A stretch of DNA of 59,563 nt from Prochlorococcus sp. AG-355-N16 (GTDB lineage Bacteria > Cyanobacteriota > Cyanobacteriia > PCC-6307 > Cyanobiaceae), in the NCBI GenBank assembly GCA_003278545.1, contig QCEF01000007.1, positions 1 through 59,563 of the forward strand, written 5' to 3'. Under the pieces are notes generated by a model. It saw only the letters and a program-made list of their open reading frames with translations, searched no databases and had not been told where the DNA came from. The position numbers and the translations under genes are program-made. Below, in pieces: positions 285 through 46,813 of this stretch (its first letter is position 1; the number at the start of each line of letters is the position of its first letter).

Positions 285-365
285 AATTTTATTAAAAACT
301 ACTTTTAAAGATTTTTTAAATATATCTTAAATCCGACCTTTTTTTTTAATGTTAGCTTACTTCTA

Positions 366-421
366 CGTTCATCCAATTTATTTGGACGCATGAAATGAGA
401 ATAGGGAACGGGATTCTCATT
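366..421 (+). promoter_or_regulatory. Candidate glutamine-II (Downstream-peptide) riboswitch
   Basis: A compact pseudoknotted RNA can be drawn. P1 pairs CGTTC (366-370) with GAACG (406-410). P2 is a hairpin TCCAA/TTGGA (372-376 with 382-386) followed by CGCA. A pseudoknot pairs ATGAGAAT (395-402), inside the P1 loop, with ATTCTCAT (413-420), just 3' of P1. This order of CGTTCA, short hairpin, CGCA and GGAACG matches my knowledge of the Downstream-peptide motif, shown to bind L-glutamine and found upstream of short ORFs in marine cyanobacteria. The ATG of a 56-codon gene lies 15 bases after the pseudoknot, so translational control is plausible. A second copy with different sequence but the same architecture occurs at 38295-38348. 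Confidence 0.75.
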
Positions 422-435
422 AACTGCATAAGATC

Positions 436-606
436 ATGAATGAGCTCTCTCAAATAAGAGAAAAAATTACAAGAGCCAAGAGGCTTTATGAAGCCCAAAT
501 CTTGGCAACTAAAAATGGAGAAGTTACTCCATATAGAAGATCAGTCTTTGAAGAAAGAATTAGGGAAGCACAAAAAGAAATGAGAACGCAAGACACCAAA
601 AAATAA
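436..606 (+). CDS. 56-aa peptide downstream of a candidate glutamine riboswitch
   Basis: This is a short open frame starting MNELSQIREK and ending in TQDTKK. It is highly charged, almost certainly largely helical, and has no cysteine, signal peptide or membrane segment. A run of Glu/Arg/Lys spaced along the helix gives it a coiled-coil or partner-binding look, with a central Gly-Glu-Val-Thr-Pro break. It starts 15 bases after the structured leader at 366-421, which is the defining context of the Downstream-peptide class. By analogy with other glutamine-controlled cyanobacterial microproteins, a role in nitrogen assimilation is a reasonable inference, but no partner can be named from sequence. 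Its existence is supported mainly by the conserved-looking leader. Confidence 0.7.
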   Translation: MNELSQIREKITRAKRLYEAQILATKNGEVTPYRRSVFEERIREAQKEMRTQDTKK

Positions 607-1230: not shown

Positions 1231-1767
1231 TTAATTATCTTTAAACGGAATTAAAATACCTTTTTTTTCAAATTTGAGCCAACCTTTTTTTTCTAGTATT
1301 TTTAAATTTCTTGTTACGGTTACTCTTGTTGAAGAAATTGAATTACCAATAATTTTATGGGTAAAATTAAATTCTTTTAAATTTAGATAAATATGTTTAT
1401 CTTTTTTTAAGCCAATAATTGAAGATAAGTATAAAAGAAATTCTTTTAGTTTTTCTTCTGATTTTTTTATATTACTTATTAATAAAAGTTTTTCCAATTG
1501 ATCAATTCTTTTTAGACTTTTTGTTAATAAGTCTGTAGATGAAAAAAATAGCCCTCTTTTAATTGTTTTAATTTCGCAATTTGTCAACGCAATTAATTTA
1601 ATATTTTCGTATTTACATAATTCCAAATTTATTACAACATTTTCATTTATTATCCCAACAATATTTTTCTTATTCTTGATTTTTGATTGCATTATTAATA
1701 TTCCTGATTTGACTTCTAGAATTGTATTTTCTTTAAATTCTATATTTTGCTTTTCAGGAATTATCAT
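1231..1767 (-). CDS. Crp/Fnr-type transcriptional regulator, divergent
   Basis: The C-terminal third (about residues 130-178) has a Crp-type winged helix-turn-helix: a THKIIGNSISSTRVTVTRNLKIL segment whose SSTRVTVTR part matches the recognition helix, followed by a wing (KGWLKFEKKGILIPF). The N-terminal 80 residues look like a shortened cyclic-nucleotide-binding beta barrel, and a central coiled helix (about 80-115) would be the dimer helix. At 178 aa it is shorter than NtcA or Crp (about 220), and no cyclic-nucleotide phosphate cassette is visible, so its ligand is unknown. It is transcribed divergently from phnD with 190 bases between them, so it may regulate the phn operon, as PtrA-like regulators do elsewhere in phosphate islands. 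That link is inference. Confidence 0.75.
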   Translation of the reverse strand: MIIPEKQNIEFKENTILEVKSGILIMQSKIKNKKNIVGIINENVVINLELCKYENIKLIALTNCEIKTIKRGLFFSSTDLLTKSLKRIDQLEKLLLISNIKKSEEKLKEFLLYLSSIIGLKKDKHIYLNLKEFNFTHKIIGNSISSTRVTVTRNLKILEKKGWLKFEKKGILIPFKDN

Positions 1768-1843
1768 ATTTATTTATTAAACTTAATCACCCTAAATTTA
1801 TAAAGTTAAAAATAAATTAAAAATTATTTAATTCCCTAATAAA

Positions 1844-1887
1844 TCTGATTAAAAATTGACTAACTCAAAATAAAACAATTAATCAGA
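1844..1887. promoter_or_regulatory. Inverted repeat between regulator and phnD, possible operator
   Basis: TCTGATTAA (1844-1852) and TTAATCAGA (1879-1887) are perfect 9-base inverted arms separated by 26 bases. They lie in the divergent intergenic region between the Crp-like regulator and phnD, about 70-115 bases before the phnD start. The arms could be two half-sites of a regulator or the stem of a long hairpin. They do not match the CTTAACCT-type tandem Pho box I know from cyanobacteria, nor the NtcA consensus GTA-N8-TAC. The assignment is tentative. Confidence 0.35.
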
Positions 1888-1958
1888 ATTTAAACTCTTT
1901 TTGGGAAAAAGTTAATCTCTTTAGAGCAAGTTAAATATGGAGAATAAATTAAACACTA

Positions 1959-2957
1959 ATGAAAAATTTATTAAAGATAGTCTTAGGTCTATCAATAATC
2001 AGTACAAGTATTTCAAGTTGTGGAAACAAACCAAATGATTTAATTGGAGATTTAGATTTATCTGATTGCAATCCAAATAATACTGTTGACAGCAAATATT
2101 GTGATCGAGATGGAGATTTTCTCGCAGATCTACCCCTTTCCGAAGATGAATGGATAGATCCTGAAACCATTGTGTTCTCATATACACCTGTTGAAGACCC
2201 CTCCGTTTATGCAAAAGTTTGGGAAGATTTTGTAACACATATGTCTAAGGTGACTGGTAAAAAAGTCACTTTCTTACCAGTTCAATCTTATGCTGCTCAA
2301 GTTGAGGCAATGAGATCTGGACGTCTTCATGTAGCAGGAATTAATACTGGAAGCAATACAGTGGCAGCAGCATGTGCAGGAGCAGTTCCATTTGGAATGA
2401 TGGCTAAAAAAGATTTATCTTACGGTTATGAAATGGAAATTATTGTTCCTTCTGATAGTCCAATTAATTCTCCTGCAGATTTAAAAGGTAAAAAAGTTAC
2501 ATTTACATCTAAGACATCTAATTCAGGATTTAAAGCACCATCGGCCATTCTTAAAGGAGAATTTGGTCTTGAGGCAAATAAAGATTTCACCCCAGTCTTT
2601 TCTGGCAAGCATCAAAATTCAATAATGGGTGTTGCAAACAAAGATTATGAAGTAGCACCAATTGCTAACTCAGTTCTTACAAGAATGGATGCAAGAGGTG
2701 TTGTTGATTCTTCTAAAATAAGAACTATTTATAAATCCCAAACCTTCCCAACGACAGGTTATGCTCATGCTCATAATTTACATCCAGCTGTAGTTGCAAA
2801 AGTAAAGCAAGCTTTTTACACCTATAACTGGGATAATTCAACATTAGATAAAGAATTTAAAAAGGCTGATAGATTCATTTCAATAAGTCACAAGCACGAT
2901 TGGGATGTTATTAGAAAAATAGATAAGGCTAATGGTGTTGTTTATGATTGCAAATAA
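1959..2957 (+). CDS. phnD: PhnD-type phosphonate/phosphite-binding lipoprotein
   Basis: This 332-aa protein begins with a lipoprotein signal (lipobox near SISSC, cysteine 21) and is anchored outside the inner membrane. The rest is a PhnD-family periplasmic binding protein: the family pattern of tyrosine and Gln-Ser-Tyr contacts (VQSYAAQVEAMRSGRL), a GIN(T)GS loop with SNT, and the hinge segment SPINSPADLKGKKVTFTSKTSNSGF, where the Thr-Ser residues usually hold the phosphoryl group. Family members in Prochlorococcus (PhnD1) have been reported to bind phosphite and methylphosphonate. It starts a four-gene operon with phnC and two phnE genes. No C-P lyase or phosphite dehydrogenase gene is in this window, so the final fate of the substrate cannot be told here. 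Confidence 0.93.
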   Translation: MKNLLKIVLGLSIISTSISSCGNKPNDLIGDLDLSDCNPNNTVDSKYCDRDGDFLADLPLSEDEWIDPETIVFSYTPVEDPSVYAKVWEDFVTHMSKVTGKKVTFLPVQSYAAQVEAMRSGRLHVAGINTGSNTVAAACAGAVPFGMMAKKDLSYGYEMEIIVPSDSPINSPADLKGKKVTFTSKTSNSGFKAPSAILKGEFGLEANKDFTPVFSGKHQNSIMGVANKDYEVAPIANSVLTRMDARGVVDSSKIRTIYKSQTFPTTGYAHAHNLHPAVVAKVKQAFYTYNWDNSTLDKEFKKADRFISISHKHDWDVIRKIDKANGVVYDCK

Positions 2958-2988
2958 AAATTATTAATCATAAATAAAATCAGACTTA

Positions 2989-3756
2989 ATGCTTAAAACA
3001 ATAAACCTCAAAAAGGTTTATCCAAATGGAGAAGAGGCGCTTAAAGGAATAAACCTAGAAATTCCTAATGGTCAAGTAGTTGCTCTTATCGGTCCTTCAG
3101 GTGCTGGTAAAAGTACGTTCATTAGAACAATAAATAGATTAGTTGAGCCCACTTCAGGGAAAGTTTATTTCGCTAATAAAAAAAATGATATTACCTCCTT
3201 AAATAAATCTAAATTAAGAAAAATAAGAAGACAAATTGGAATGATTTTCCAGGAATTTGCTTTGGTAGAAAGATTAAGTGTAATGGAAAATGTTCTTTCC
3301 GGCAGATTAGGTTATGTAGGATTTTGGAATAGTTTTTTCAGGAAATTTCCTCAAAAAGATATTGAAGAAGCATTCCGTCTGCTTCAAAGAATTGGACTAG
3401 AGCATATGCTTGATAAAAGAGCCGATGAATTGTCAGGAGGGCAGAGGCAAAGAGTAGGAATTGCTAGAGCTTTGATACAAAATCCAATGTTACTTTTAGT
3501 AGATGAACCTACAGCGAGTTTAGATCCCAAAAATTCCAGGCAAATTATGCGATTAATATGCGAGTTATGTAAGGAAAGAAATCTTGCTGCGATTATAAAT
3601 ATTCATGATGTTTTTCTTGCTCAGAATTTTGCAGAAAGAATAATAGGTTTAAAAGCTGGAGAAATTGTTTACGATGGCAAGCCAAGTGGCTTATCAGAGA
3701 CAATACTTACAAAAATATATGGAGAAGAAGACTGGTCTAAAAATGTAGCAAATTAG
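2989..3756 (+). CDS. phnC: Phosphonate/phosphite ABC transporter ATPase
   Basis: This is a 255-aa ATP-binding subunit with Walker A GPSGAGKS (residues 35-42), a Q-loop (IFQEFALV), signature LSGGQRQR, Walker [13 protein letters not shown] and the switch histidine in NIHDV. The length and the IGRNFIRT-like region after Walker A ([14 protein letters not shown]) fit PhnC. It drives uptake of the ligand delivered by PhnD through the two PhnE subunits. It lies 31 bases after phnD and 11 bases before the first phnE. Identity as an ABC importer ATPase is very secure; PhnC specifically follows from the operon. Confidence 0.95.
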
Positions 3757-3767
3757 GAATATATTAA

Positions 3768-4565
3768 ATGAATGATAAGAAAGTAATTTGGAAAAGAAAA
3801 CCGTTAATAAAAAATAGGTTATTAAGAATTGGATTAATTTTGCTAATTAGTACTTACTTATTATCTGTTTTCCTAACTACCGAAATTGATTGGCAAAGAA
3901 TTCTTGAAGGGATCCCAAGGGGTAAAAATTTTATATTTGCTTTTTTCCCTCCAGATTTTATAACTAGATCTGATGAGATTTTGGCAGGCATTTTTGAAAG
4001 TCTATGGATGACTATTGTTGCAACTATTGTGGGGATACTTATTTCTATACCTGTATCCTTAGGGGCGGCTAAAAACATAGCTCCTAAATTTGTTTATTTC
4101 TTATCAAGAGGAGTTATCACATTGTCGAGGAGTTTTCAGGAAGTTATCCTAGCAATATTTTTTGTCAAGTTAATGGGTTTTGGACCTTTTGCTGGGATGG
4201 TAACTCTGAGTTTATCGACAATAGGGTTTTTCGCTAAATTATTATCTGAAGATATTGAAGACATAAATAAATCCCAAGCTGAAGCAATCAAATCTACTGG
4301 CAGCAGTTGGTTTCAATGGGTTAATTATGGTGTCCAGCCTCAAGTTATGCCAAGATTTATTGGATTATCTTTATACAGATTGGATATTAATTTTAGAGAG
4401 TCTGCGGTAATTGGAATTGTTGGGGGAGGAGGTATTGGTTCTACCTTAAATACAGCTTTTGATAGATATGAATTTGAGACTGCAGCGGCTGTTCTTATCG
4501 TAATTATTTCTATCGTGATGATTGTTGAATATACATCTAGTCATCTCAGGAAATTAATAAAGTAA
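3768..4565 (+). CDS. phnE: Phosphonate/phosphite ABC transporter permease, first copy
   Basis: This 265-aa integral membrane protein has about six hydrophobic segments and the ABC-2 importer coupling motif around EAIKSTGSSWFQWVNYG, followed by QPQVMP. The conserved RESAVIGIVGGGGIG stretch near the C-terminus is typical of PhnE. It follows phnC by 11 bases and its stop codon overlaps the start of the second phnE (TAATG), so the two are translationally coupled. Two different PhnE proteins with one PhnC and one PhnD imply a heterodimeric channel. Confidence 0.93.
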   Translation: MNDKKVIWKRKPLIKNRLLRIGLILLISTYLLSVFLTTEIDWQRILEGIPRGKNFIFAFFPPDFITRSDEILAGIFESLWMTIVATIVGILISIPVSLGAAKNIAPKFVYFLSRGVITLSRSFQEVILAIFFVKLMGFGPFAGMVTLSLSTIGFFAKLLSEDIEDINKSQAEAIKSTGSSWFQWVNYGVQPQVMPRFIGLSLYRLDINFRESAVIGIVGGGGIGSTLNTAFDRYEFETAAAVLIVIISIVMIVEYTSSHLRKLIK

Positions 4566-38100: not shown

Positions 38101-38274
38101 TTATTTAGTGTAATTAACACCTCTGTAATTTAATTCTGCTTTTTCTTTACTTGAAGAAGCGTCATCCATTCTGTTGGTGTATACGTTTCTTCTGTAGGTA
38201 AGTTCAACAAGTTGCTTTTTAGCAGCTTCTTTGTTTTGAACGTAGTTTTTACCTCTGTAAGTTAAAGTAGTCAT
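38101..38274 (-). CDS. DUF4278 microprotein, PirA-like
   Basis: A 57-aa protein with two DUF4278 repeats: MTTLTYRGKNYVQNK at the start and ELNYRGVNYTK at the end, with VELTYRRNVYT in the middle as a third related unit. DUF4278 proteins include, as I recall, PirA of Synechocystis, a PII-binding microprotein acting on the ornithine-ammonia cycle. The start at 38274 is chosen because an upstream in-frame ATG (38310) lies within the riboswitch-like structure. A leader with glutamine-II architecture and a strong terminator surround it, so this is a stand-alone regulated gene. Confidence 0.85.
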   Translation of the reverse strand: MTTLTYRGKNYVQNKEAAKKQLVELTYRRNVYTNRMDDASSSKEKAELNYRGVNYTK

Positions 38275-38294
38275 GTTTCGATGTGACAACACGG

Positions 38295-38348
38295 CCATCC
38301 CCCGTTCCATGGTATGACTCGAACTGCGCCCTCAAATGAGGGTGAACG
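38295..38348 (-). promoter_or_regulatory. Candidate glutamine-II (Downstream-peptide) riboswitch
   Basis: On the minus strand, P1 pairs CGTTC (38348-38344) with GAACG (38307-38303). P2 is CCCTC-ATTT-GAGGG (38342-38329), followed by CGCAG. A pseudoknot can pair CCAT (38312-38309) with ATGG (38298-38295) downstream of P1. The same layout and the same CGTTCA, CGCA and GGAACGGG bases occur at 366-421. The start codon of the DUF4278 gene lies 20 bases after. Glutamine is the known ligand of this class; on binding it is thought to change access to the ribosome-binding site. Confidence 0.8.
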
Positions 38349-38529
38349 AAAAAGTAGCAATTGCTACCAAATAATTATAAGCGTATTTTTAGCCGCATGT
38401 CTAGCTTTTACAAATAGAAACGTAGATTTAATGTTTTTTTAATTATTATCTTAGGTAAATTTTTTTATAAATAGTCTCTAAAAAGGTTTATGTTTATATT
38501 TGGTTTAATCTTCATGTAACTATTTATTT

Positions 38530-45326: not shown

Positions 45327-46813
45327 AACAAGTATCAATTATTTTCCCGAATCAACTTTTTAGAGAAAGCCCAATCTTAAAAATAAATTGTGAAGTTTTG
45401 ATTTTGGAAGACTCATTATTTTTTGGAAATGATAAATTTCATAAATTAATTAACCATAAAAATAAGTTAGTTTTTCATAGAGCATCTATGCTCGCTTATA
45501 AAAATTATTTAGAAATATCTGGCTTTAAAGTTTTATATATCGAAAACAAGAATAATGTTTCTACAGTTGATTACTTATCGGAATTTATTAAAAATAAATA
45601 TCAGAAAATAAATCTCATTGACCCGCATGATTTTTTAATAATGAAGAGGATTAATAATTTTGTTAAAAGTAATAATTTAGCTTTAAATATTTTACCTTCT
45701 CCTATGTTTATGAGCAGTGAAGATTTAAAAGATTTATTTGCATCAAATCCAAAAAAACCTCTTATGGGGAGATTTTATGAGAATCAAAGAAAGAGCCAAA
45801 AGATATTAGTTAATCCTGATGATACACCTGAAGGCGGTAAATGGAGTTTCGATGAAATGAACAGAAAAAAATTACCAAAAAAAATAAATATACCCTATAC
45901 ACCTAAATTACAAAAAAATAAATTTGTAGTTAATGCAGAAAGGTCATTAGCCAATTTTGATATTAAGTTTATTGGAGAAAGTAATAACTTTTTATATCCA
46001 ACTAATTTTGAAGAGGCAGATGAATGGTTAAATGAATTTTTTAAACATAGATTTTTCTTATTTGGAGATTATGAGGATGCTATTTCTAAAGAAAATTCTT
46101 TTTTATGGCACAGTTTACTTTCTCCTCTTTTAAATAGCGGCTTATTAACCCCAGATGTAGTAGTAAATAAAGCATTACTTTTTGCAAAAAATAATAATGT
46201 TCCTATTAACTCTTTAGAGGGTTTTATTCGTCAAATTATCGGATGGAGAGAATTTATTTGCCTCGTCTATAAAAAGTACGGAACAAAGATGCGAAATAGT
46301 AATTTTTGGAATTTTGAAGATAAGCCAATTCCAAAATCTTTTTATCAAGGAAATACAGGAATTGAACCAGTAGACGTTGTTATAAAAAATATTATTAAAT
46401 TTGGTTATTGTCATCATATTGAGCGGCTAATGATTATTGGCAACTTTATGCTTCTATGTAGAATTCATCCCAACCAAGTTTATAAATGGTTTATGGAAAT
46501 GTTTATTGATTCCTATGATTGGGTTATGGTCCCAAATGTTTACGGAATGAGTCAGTTTAGTGATGGAGGTATCTTTTCAACAAAGCCATATATATCAAGC
46601 TCTAATTATGTAAAAAAAATGTCTAATTTTAAAAGTGGGCCATGGTGTGGAATATGGGATGGCTTATTTTGGAAATTTATTAAAGATAATGAAAGCTTTT
46701 TTAGAAAACAATATCGTCTGGCAATGTTAACGAGAAATCTCGATAAAATGTCAGAGGAAAAATTAAATAATCACTTAAAAACGGCCGATAAATTTTTAAG
46801 AGATATTCAATAA
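45323..46813 (+). CDS. Photolyase/cryptochrome-related protein (PhrB/CryB family)
   Basis: A 496-aa protein of the bacterial (6-4) photolyase group. Marks are SIIFPNQLF at the start, [35 protein letters not shown], and [14 protein letters not shown] for FAD binding. The group usually holds a 4Fe-4S cluster through four cysteines, with a CxxC near the end. Here the corresponding segment is [11 protein letters not shown] (433-443) and only one of those cysteines appears to be kept. So it probably has FAD but no Fe-S cluster. It may repair UV damage or act as a light sensor. Confidence 0.85.

Follow-up and report, generated by a model that had tools for sequence, protein, structure and literature searches.

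The window, the whole 59,563-nucleotide stretch of Prochlorococcus sp. AG-355-N16 analyzed here (contig QCEF01000007.1), carries a glutamine-II riboswitch aptamer directly in front of a 56-codon gene and, on the opposite strand, a second aptamer of this class in front of a gene for a 57-aa protein (Table 1). A sequence-only reading of this DNA had proposed the first pair from its elements (CGTTC/GAACG, a hairpin, CGCA, an 8-bp pairing, and the 56-codon gene), and all of these were located in the sequence. The Rfam covariance model RF01704 matched the leader at 55.4 bits against a cut-off of 33 (E 9.9e-11 for the window), which bears out the proposed glutamine-II (Downstream-peptide) class. The aptamer ends at 420, the ATG lies at 436, and the stop codon at 604–606 closes the 56 codons, a short-ORF leader as in RF01704 members. 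Genes behind the Downstream-peptide motif are reported typically to encode 17 to 100 aa of no known family (PMC2864571).

Table 1. Positions of the two glutamine-II switches of the window, their elements, and their genes
Feature	Position	Strand	Basis or remark
Glutamine-II riboswitch aptamer	363–420	+	RF01704 55.4 bits, full model 1–60
PK helix, 5′ strand CGTTC	366–370	+	Partner 406–410; constant in 34 leaders
Hairpin (P1 of the crystal paper, P2 of the sequence-only reading)	372–386	+	Stem 372–376/382–386
CGCA	387–390	+	C387 G388 C389 = C17 G18 C19 of the crystal RNA (sequence as in PMC6698751)
8-bp helix (P2 of the crystal paper, pseudoknot of the sequence-only reading), 5′ strand ATGAGAAT	395–402	+	
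PK helix, 3′ strand GAACG	406–410	+	Partner 366–370; constant in 34 leaders
8-bp helix, 3′ strand ATTCTCAT	413–420	+	Pairs with 395–402
Start region AUGAAUG, candidate OFF pairing	436–442	+	Complementary to CGUUCAU 366–372 with one G-U; RNAfold
56-aa microprotein MNELSQIREK...DTKK	436–606	+	Same-genus relatives; pN/pS; AlphaFold2
57-aa DUF4278-type protein MTTLTYRGKNY...	38101–38274	−	Near-identical relative: PF14105, E 6.1e-11
Second glutamine-II riboswitch	38294–38351	−	RF01704 67.5 bits
NtcA-type box GTAGCAATTGCTAC, perfect GTAN8TAC	38354–38367	−	Upstream of the second riboswitch, read from the sequence

All three helices of the earlier proposal exist, and only their labels have to be exchanged: in the crystal structure paper the hairpin is P1, CGUUC/GAACG is PK, and the 8-bp helix that had been called the pseudoknot is P2 (PMC6698751). 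The wild-type RNA of that paper comes from Prochlorococcus sp. RS01, and the crystals and calorimetry, made with RS01 RNA in which the hairpin was replaced, gave a glutamine affinity in the micromolar range and a glutamine pocket within the PK helix (PMC6698751). The RS01 RNA is letter-for-letter the same as the leader of paralogues of the window gene (e.g. L029); it has its helices and conserved bases in common with the window leader, from which it departs in the hairpin loop and at two pairs of the 8-bp helix, A-U in the window and G-U in the RS01 RNA. Glutamine binding is thus known from the literature for a sibling aptamer (PMC6698751), and the ligand-helix bases (C1, G2, G18, C19, A33, G35, C39, G40, G41, and G42 of the published sequence) are all the same in the window. 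Our family model, R1, scored 86.3 bits at 366–434, the window being one of its 34 training sequences. Another R1 match in the window, at 45616 (17 bits, E 0.013), was taken as chance. The nested-only folding energy of the window leader was unremarkable (z −1.25). By eye, we also spotted CTCATT and AATGAG as a candidate pairing that would compete with the 8-bp helix. We conclude that the window RNA is an ordinary member of a known riboswitch class, with nothing new about it as an RNA.

Pairing and covariation were measured over 34 distinct leaders of the peptide gene family (612 cells), with 500 shuffles of the 3′ letters and with slid partners as controls. Paired cells made up 93.6% of the 612, compared with 86.1% after shuffling (none of the 500 shuffles reached 93.6%) and 36–57% with slid partners, and the covariation score was 0.290, compared with 0.143 shuffled and at most 0.101 slid. 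Two counts did not exceed what shuffling gives, namely pairs changed on both sides (7 versus 5.3 in shuffles, with 78 of 500 as good) and further pair types (20 versus 19.2, with 206 of 500 as good). Three of the five measures beat the shuffles, and the pairing is conserved. The hairpin showed two-sided changes at three of its five pairs (84.1% of cells paired, with the innermost pair open in 23 of the 34 leaders) and the 8-bp helix at four of its eight (95.6% paired), while the five CGTTC/GAACG pairs did not vary at all. In a set of sister aptamers (L278–L286 and L003), which precede a 33-aa protein beginning MVNMYFNGKSFVYC, CGTTC/GAACG is replaced by CGTCC/GGACG; here the ligand-binding helix has changed naturally on both strands. 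Compensatory change is present in all three helices, in PK only by way of the sister aptamers.

The translation of 436–606 is MNELSQIREKITRAKRLYEAQILATKNGEVTPYRRSVFEERIREAQKEMRTQDTKK. Pooled over 23 ORFs, pN/pS was 0.38; the 56-aa ORF is coding, and its orthologues are under purifying selection. This value bears on a rival explanation in which the transcript itself, a Yfr6-type RNA, is the product and the ORF is incidental. The related Yfr6 was indeed first taken as a possible functional RNA with a possible short frame of 33 aa (PMC1242208), but the pN/pS and a conservation at the protein level that extends to distant genera and phages make such a reading of the window gene highly improbable. 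AlphaFold2 predicts two helices, at residues 3–26 and 35–54, with moderate confidence (pLDDT 77.8, pTM 0.55), which agrees with the earlier description of the peptide as helical. Searches with the peptide returned nothing above the cut-off in Pfam (only PIN_2, at E 0.15, and no match to PF14105, the DUF4278 family) and no usable match in NCBIfam or among PDB sequences. Of 400 genomes from the taxonomic family, 96 contain relatives, 60 of 68 within the genus and 36 of 332 outside it; the window type, which begins MNEL and is at least 88% identical, is found in 13 of the 68. Prochlorococcus MIT 9302 (L094) and MIT 9107 (L144) are among the carriers of family members. A profile of 19 members matched 48 of 386 genomes of the phylum, among which no relative outside the taxonomic family scored better than E 0.011. 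The peptide is apparently a member of an undescribed protein family.

The genome of the window (1.65 Mb, 23 contigs) holds three copies of the gene: the intact MNEL copy of the window, a broken MNEL copy at the end of contig C11 (L005), and an MNNL copy on contig C5. The C11 copy has lost its frame through a 10-bp deletion and still has an aptamer of 51.2 bits. One of three copies being broken, the gene is not under uniform constraint. The contig of the window and contig C11 both start within one duplicated stretch (positions 1–680 of each), with a mean column identity of 90%. In the MNEL-type loci looked at, the gene is flanked on one side by an 84-aa ORF and on the other by a lipoprotein-like ORF, a DUF3764 protein, and a Crp-type regulator, and some loci have a neighbor shortened or absent. 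Beside the peptide gene, window positions 1231–4565 encode the Crp-type regulator and a phosphonate-type ABC transporter (binding protein, ATPase, and permease).

Switch and protein family are closely coupled. We examined 90 loci, namely 72 of the 123 places from the protein search (three of which, in the own genome, were also found by RNA search) and 18 of the 21 new places that the profile found within the taxonomic family. R1 detected an aptamer in 81 of them at E ≤ 0.0052, with 31 of its 34 training leaders coming from these loci, and RF01704 added L313, L314, L320, L323, L325, L326, and L330, so that an aptamer lies just upstream in 88 of the 90. The coupling proposed earlier for the window gene and the adjoining aptamer is supported. 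The independent part of this result is the 18 distant loci, which were found by protein profile alone: RF01704 matched upstream in 17 (E ≤ 5.3e-4), in 15 over the cut-off. The two matches under the cut-off are L313 and L328 (30.3 bits), and the aptamer of L327 was seen by R1 only (45.2 bits). At L289 and L328 the proteins are longer and repeat the helix motif, and the glutamine-II aptamers in front of them are weak (24 and 30.3 bits).

No aptamer was found by R1 or RF01704 at L050 and L078, both N-terminally degenerate copies, and the degenerate copies L066, L067, and L069 have weaker aptamers (R1 37.5–53.2 bits). Where the gene copy is degenerate, the aptamer thus tends to be weak or to escape detection, as if the two decayed jointly; L005 and L058 run contrary to this tendency, with broken frames behind good aptamers (R1 83.1 and 70.4 bits). 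The degenerate copies with a weak or undetected aptamer, together with the frame lost from the second MNEL-type gene at another contig end, are what a further rival would draw on, namely that the switch is a decaying relic in a duplicated locus. Against it, decay is not always joint, as L005 and L058 attest, the window copy keeps its 55.4-bit match with every base of the reported ligand site intact (PMC6698751), and the orthologues are under purifying selection; we therefore hold it very unlikely that the window switch is a relic.

Six glutamine-II elements occur in the own genome, two of them in the window. A glutamine-II match was present in 99 of 101 genomes of the genus and in none of 14 control genomes. 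Of 65 matches in 14 genomes, we inspected 48, and the own-genome L003 in addition; behind them stand DUF4278-type peptides (33 and ~57 aa), the 33-aa MVNMYFNGKSF..., a 109-aa protein, and the window family. From their size and leader, the 33-aa proteins may be the Yfr6 peptide. The 109-aa protein (MKFSHITIMSNN...; L269, L275, and L276) has no Pfam match and occurs twice in one genome (G375). For the DUF4278-type gene behind the second switch of the window, the ORF list begins the frame at an earlier ATG, at 38310.

For the crystallized RNA, competition has been proposed between the pseudoknot helix and an alternative structure hiding the ribosome site, with Klaehn 2018 cited for an ON switch (PMC6698751), and the ON direction is reported for a Prochlorococcus glutamine-II switch (PMC6316151, PMC6698751). 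In RNAfold predictions of the window leader, CGUUCAU pairs with AUGAAUG and hides the start codon. The strongest start-codon pair over 46 distinct leaders had a mean probability of 0.32, compared with 0.12 in shuffles, reaching 0.62–0.99 in six MNEL-type leaders and staying at or below 0.01 in 13 of 16 leaders from other genera. When the PK strands were kept from pairing, as a crude imitation of the pseudoknot, start-codon accessibility rose from 0.37 to 0.73, a gain matched by 7–11% of shuffled leaders and lost when 90 nt of coding sequence were added (0.58 to 0.60). We keep start-codon release as a candidate switching mechanism that is weak against these controls. The Met-Asn start of the protein is invariant in 19 aligned members and 24 aligned phage proteins; L330 has Met-Ser. 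Residue 2 might be under constraint from the RNA, since AUGAAY, which encodes Met-Asn, can pair with the CGUUC(A) strand.

We looked for NtcA-type boxes by the motif GTAN8TAC, which we take to be their signature. The best match at the window gene had two mismatches and was equaled in 168 of 200 shuffles, and we rejected it. Perfect motifs stand before the aptamer at 14 loci from other genera, 10 of them at a distance of 10 nt, and at none of the Prochlorococcus copies read; the scan, which gives no tally over all loci, dropped 17 loci without a leader and anchored L042 and L077 on a wrong upstream CGTT. With no adjoining NtcA box, the window copy appears to rely on its RNA switch.

The constant part of the family is an N-terminal helix, MNxLxLIRxxIxKAxRLHxAQ. 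It is followed by a YRR unit in the window type, by a second copy of the helix in L056, L057, L059, L077, and L329, by DUF4278-like YRG units in L320, L325, and L326 (degenerate in L323), by an unrelated tail of ~20 residues (e.g. L313 and L317), or by almost nothing (L315, L316, and L330). We compared these units by hhalign with 150 column-shuffle controls each. The N-half aligned with the phage family phrog_545 at a score of 45.2 (shuffle maximum 21.0, 0 of 150), and the C-half with DUF4278 peptides at 21.3 and 25.2 (shuffle maxima 14.8 and 14.9, 0 of 150 each), with hhalign probabilities of 51–79% (23–61% over the full length). The converse comparisons were not significant: shuffles did as well in 46 and 40 of 150 cases for the C-half with the phage family and in 48 of 150 for the N-half with DUF4278 peptides. 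In PHROG, the window peptide itself matched phrog_545 over residues 1–25 only (E 6.2e-4) and not over the whole 55-position profile, and as a lone query it found no relative in phage records or viral contigs; the phage link was reached via the PHROG match and then via a relative from another genus and profiles. Members of phrog_545 (e.g. in Syn19, S-CAM1, and S-P4) have the N-terminal helix, as MNxLxLIRxxIxKAxxLHxAQ, in common with the window family (hhalign E 1e-9) and a DUF4278-like C-half (PF14105 E 9.8e-5, 23.1 bits, under the cut-off of 25.3).

DUF4278 is described as the N-terminus of the inhibitor IF17 of Synechocystis (PMC6316151, PMC6698751), and DUF4278 peptides of the PMM1846 type stand under switches of the class found in the window (PMC6316151). 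The C-half of the window peptide tentatively resembles the YRR unit of the DUF4278 peptides; unlike them, the peptide has the N-terminal helix where their first YRG unit stands and gives no DUF4278 match in Pfam. General searches with Pfam and NCBIfam reported no IF7-like part in it. As judged by sequence comparison, the peptide is modular, with an N-terminal helix homologous to phrog_545 and a C-half with a tentative resemblance to a DUF4278 unit. The riboswitch class was already known, and what is new concerns the protein: the family to which it belongs, the modular make-up, and the counterpart in phages.

The phage counterpart is a helix-plus-DUF4278 fusion. It was matched at E ≤ 10 by 42 cyanophage records, the best of them at E 0.005, and is encoded in at least 581 viral-contig stretches among the 600 pattern matches listed. 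In Syn19, S-CAM22, and S-P4 the fusion gene sits between nrdB and talC. AlphaFold gave a model of the fusion that is too poor to use (pLDDT 61.3, pTM 0.27). The phage gene is preceded by two tandem glutamine aptamer-like elements (e.g. L080, 1020–1520), which differ from the window aptamer in having no glutamine-II 8-bp helix. Among the scanned loci, element 1 scored 20.1–29.1 bits where its hairpin is short, and element 2 of L184, which holds no ORF, reached 29.8 bits, all under the cut-offs of 33 and 35; the ORF-bearing elements gave no Rfam match at all, and we read them as aptamers because of their conserved core, their paired strands, and L184.

Of 85 phage loci (L080–L084 and L165–L244), element 2 was complete in 57 distinct ones; the remainder were duplicates (18), truncated by a contig edge (5), devoid of the core (1), or overlooked by the script (4). 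The hairpin strands enclose a complete ORF of 53–66 codons in 56 of the 57, and the stem around the ORF has 4–10 contiguous pairs. In 55 of these 56 the nested ORF reaches 15 nt into the core, where it ends as GAC GCA AAC GAC TGA or a close form, and L184 has a UUCG hairpin where the other loci have the ORF. In S-CAM1 (L082) the ORF stops earlier yet the core remains, which argues that the core is kept as RNA. Three kinds of nested protein were scanned by one representative each: two matched phrog_504 and phrog_13397, and one was unmatched. For element 1, the 5′ strand lies before an upstream ORF in 19 of 20 distinct long-loop loci, with stems of 4 or more pairs in 14 and of 3 pairs in 5; a contig edge truncates the remaining locus. 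Its strands formed 5.3 paired positions with their own partner versus 3.8 when swapped between loci (mean of 13 distinct cases), a modest excess. Folding of the Syn19 stretch gave z −3.14, with 1 of 100 shuffles as good, over a sequence that is partly coding.

Glutamine riboswitches of phages have been published as such (PMC9964418, PMC9004378); within the literature texts available to our search, no publication on ORFs inside them was found. We put at roughly even chances the proposal that host and phage share one glutamine-sensing microprotein system in which phage aptamers hold complete genes as hairpin loops. On the host side, helix or helix-plus-DUF4278 proteins would be made under glutamine-II switches; in T4-like cyanophages, the helix-plus-DUF4278 fusion would stand behind two tandem glutamine aptamers, one or both with a gene as hairpin loop. 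The start codon of the nested gene would lie in or next to one hairpin strand and, in the second aptamer, its stop codon within the core, so that folding around the ligand should be incompatible with translating the nested gene. If this is true, a phage could set host nitrogen metabolism according to the glutamine level, and the gene-in-a-riboswitch layout, if functional, would be a new way of coupling translation to metabolite sensing.

For the window gene, the explanation that we favor overall, and consider somewhat probable, is a glutamine ON switch controlling a 56-aa modular protein that damps ammonium assimilation. The glutamine-II riboswitch would sense L-glutamine and raise translation of the 56-aa frame when nitrogen is plentiful; the protein would be one form of a modular family (helix alone, doubled, or with a DUF4278-type unit), and it would bind a host partner and damp ammonium assimilation at high glutamine, the role of IF7 and IF17 in other cyanobacteria. 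In this scheme we infer that the switch controls the gene in this organism, that it works by start-codon release, and that the protein has such a partner and such a damping effect. Damping of nitrogen assimilation is the likeliest role, with a chance of about a half. The earlier suggestion that the peptide regulates nitrogen assimilation is plausible and is helped by the apparent link of its units to the DUF4278 peptides. PirA (Ssr0692), a PII-binding protein, is comparable in size class and in its nitrogen-excess role by analogy and description only; it is reported missing from marine picocyanobacteria (PMC8092223), and the window family, in 386 genomes of the phylum, was found only in its own taxonomic family.

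Alternatively, the riboswitch may work and the peptide act elsewhere, in excess-nitrogen disposal, stress, or a phage-related process, with no restraint of nitrogen assimilation. The peptide has no sequence match to known inhibitors in Pfam, NCBIfam, or PDB, its kept neighbors (the 84-aa ORF, the DUF3764 protein, and the Crp-type regulator, with the phosphonate-type transporter beyond) are not nitrogen genes, and its helix is carried by cyanophages. The switch class that it has in common with the DUF4278 peptides, and the units that it appears to share with them, nevertheless point to the IF17 theme, and we regard action elsewhere as possible but rather unlikely.

A damping role would bear on a question that a review states in a section heading, "The Regulation of GS in Marine Picocyanobacteria is Unclear" (PMC6316151). 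Marine picocyanobacteria are reported to be without the classical inhibitors (PMC8092223), and they nonetheless carry several glutamine switches. A conserved switch-tied family that has a defined helix and is apparently linked to DUF4278 offers concrete proteins for the question of how glutamine synthetase is regulated in picocyanobacteria.
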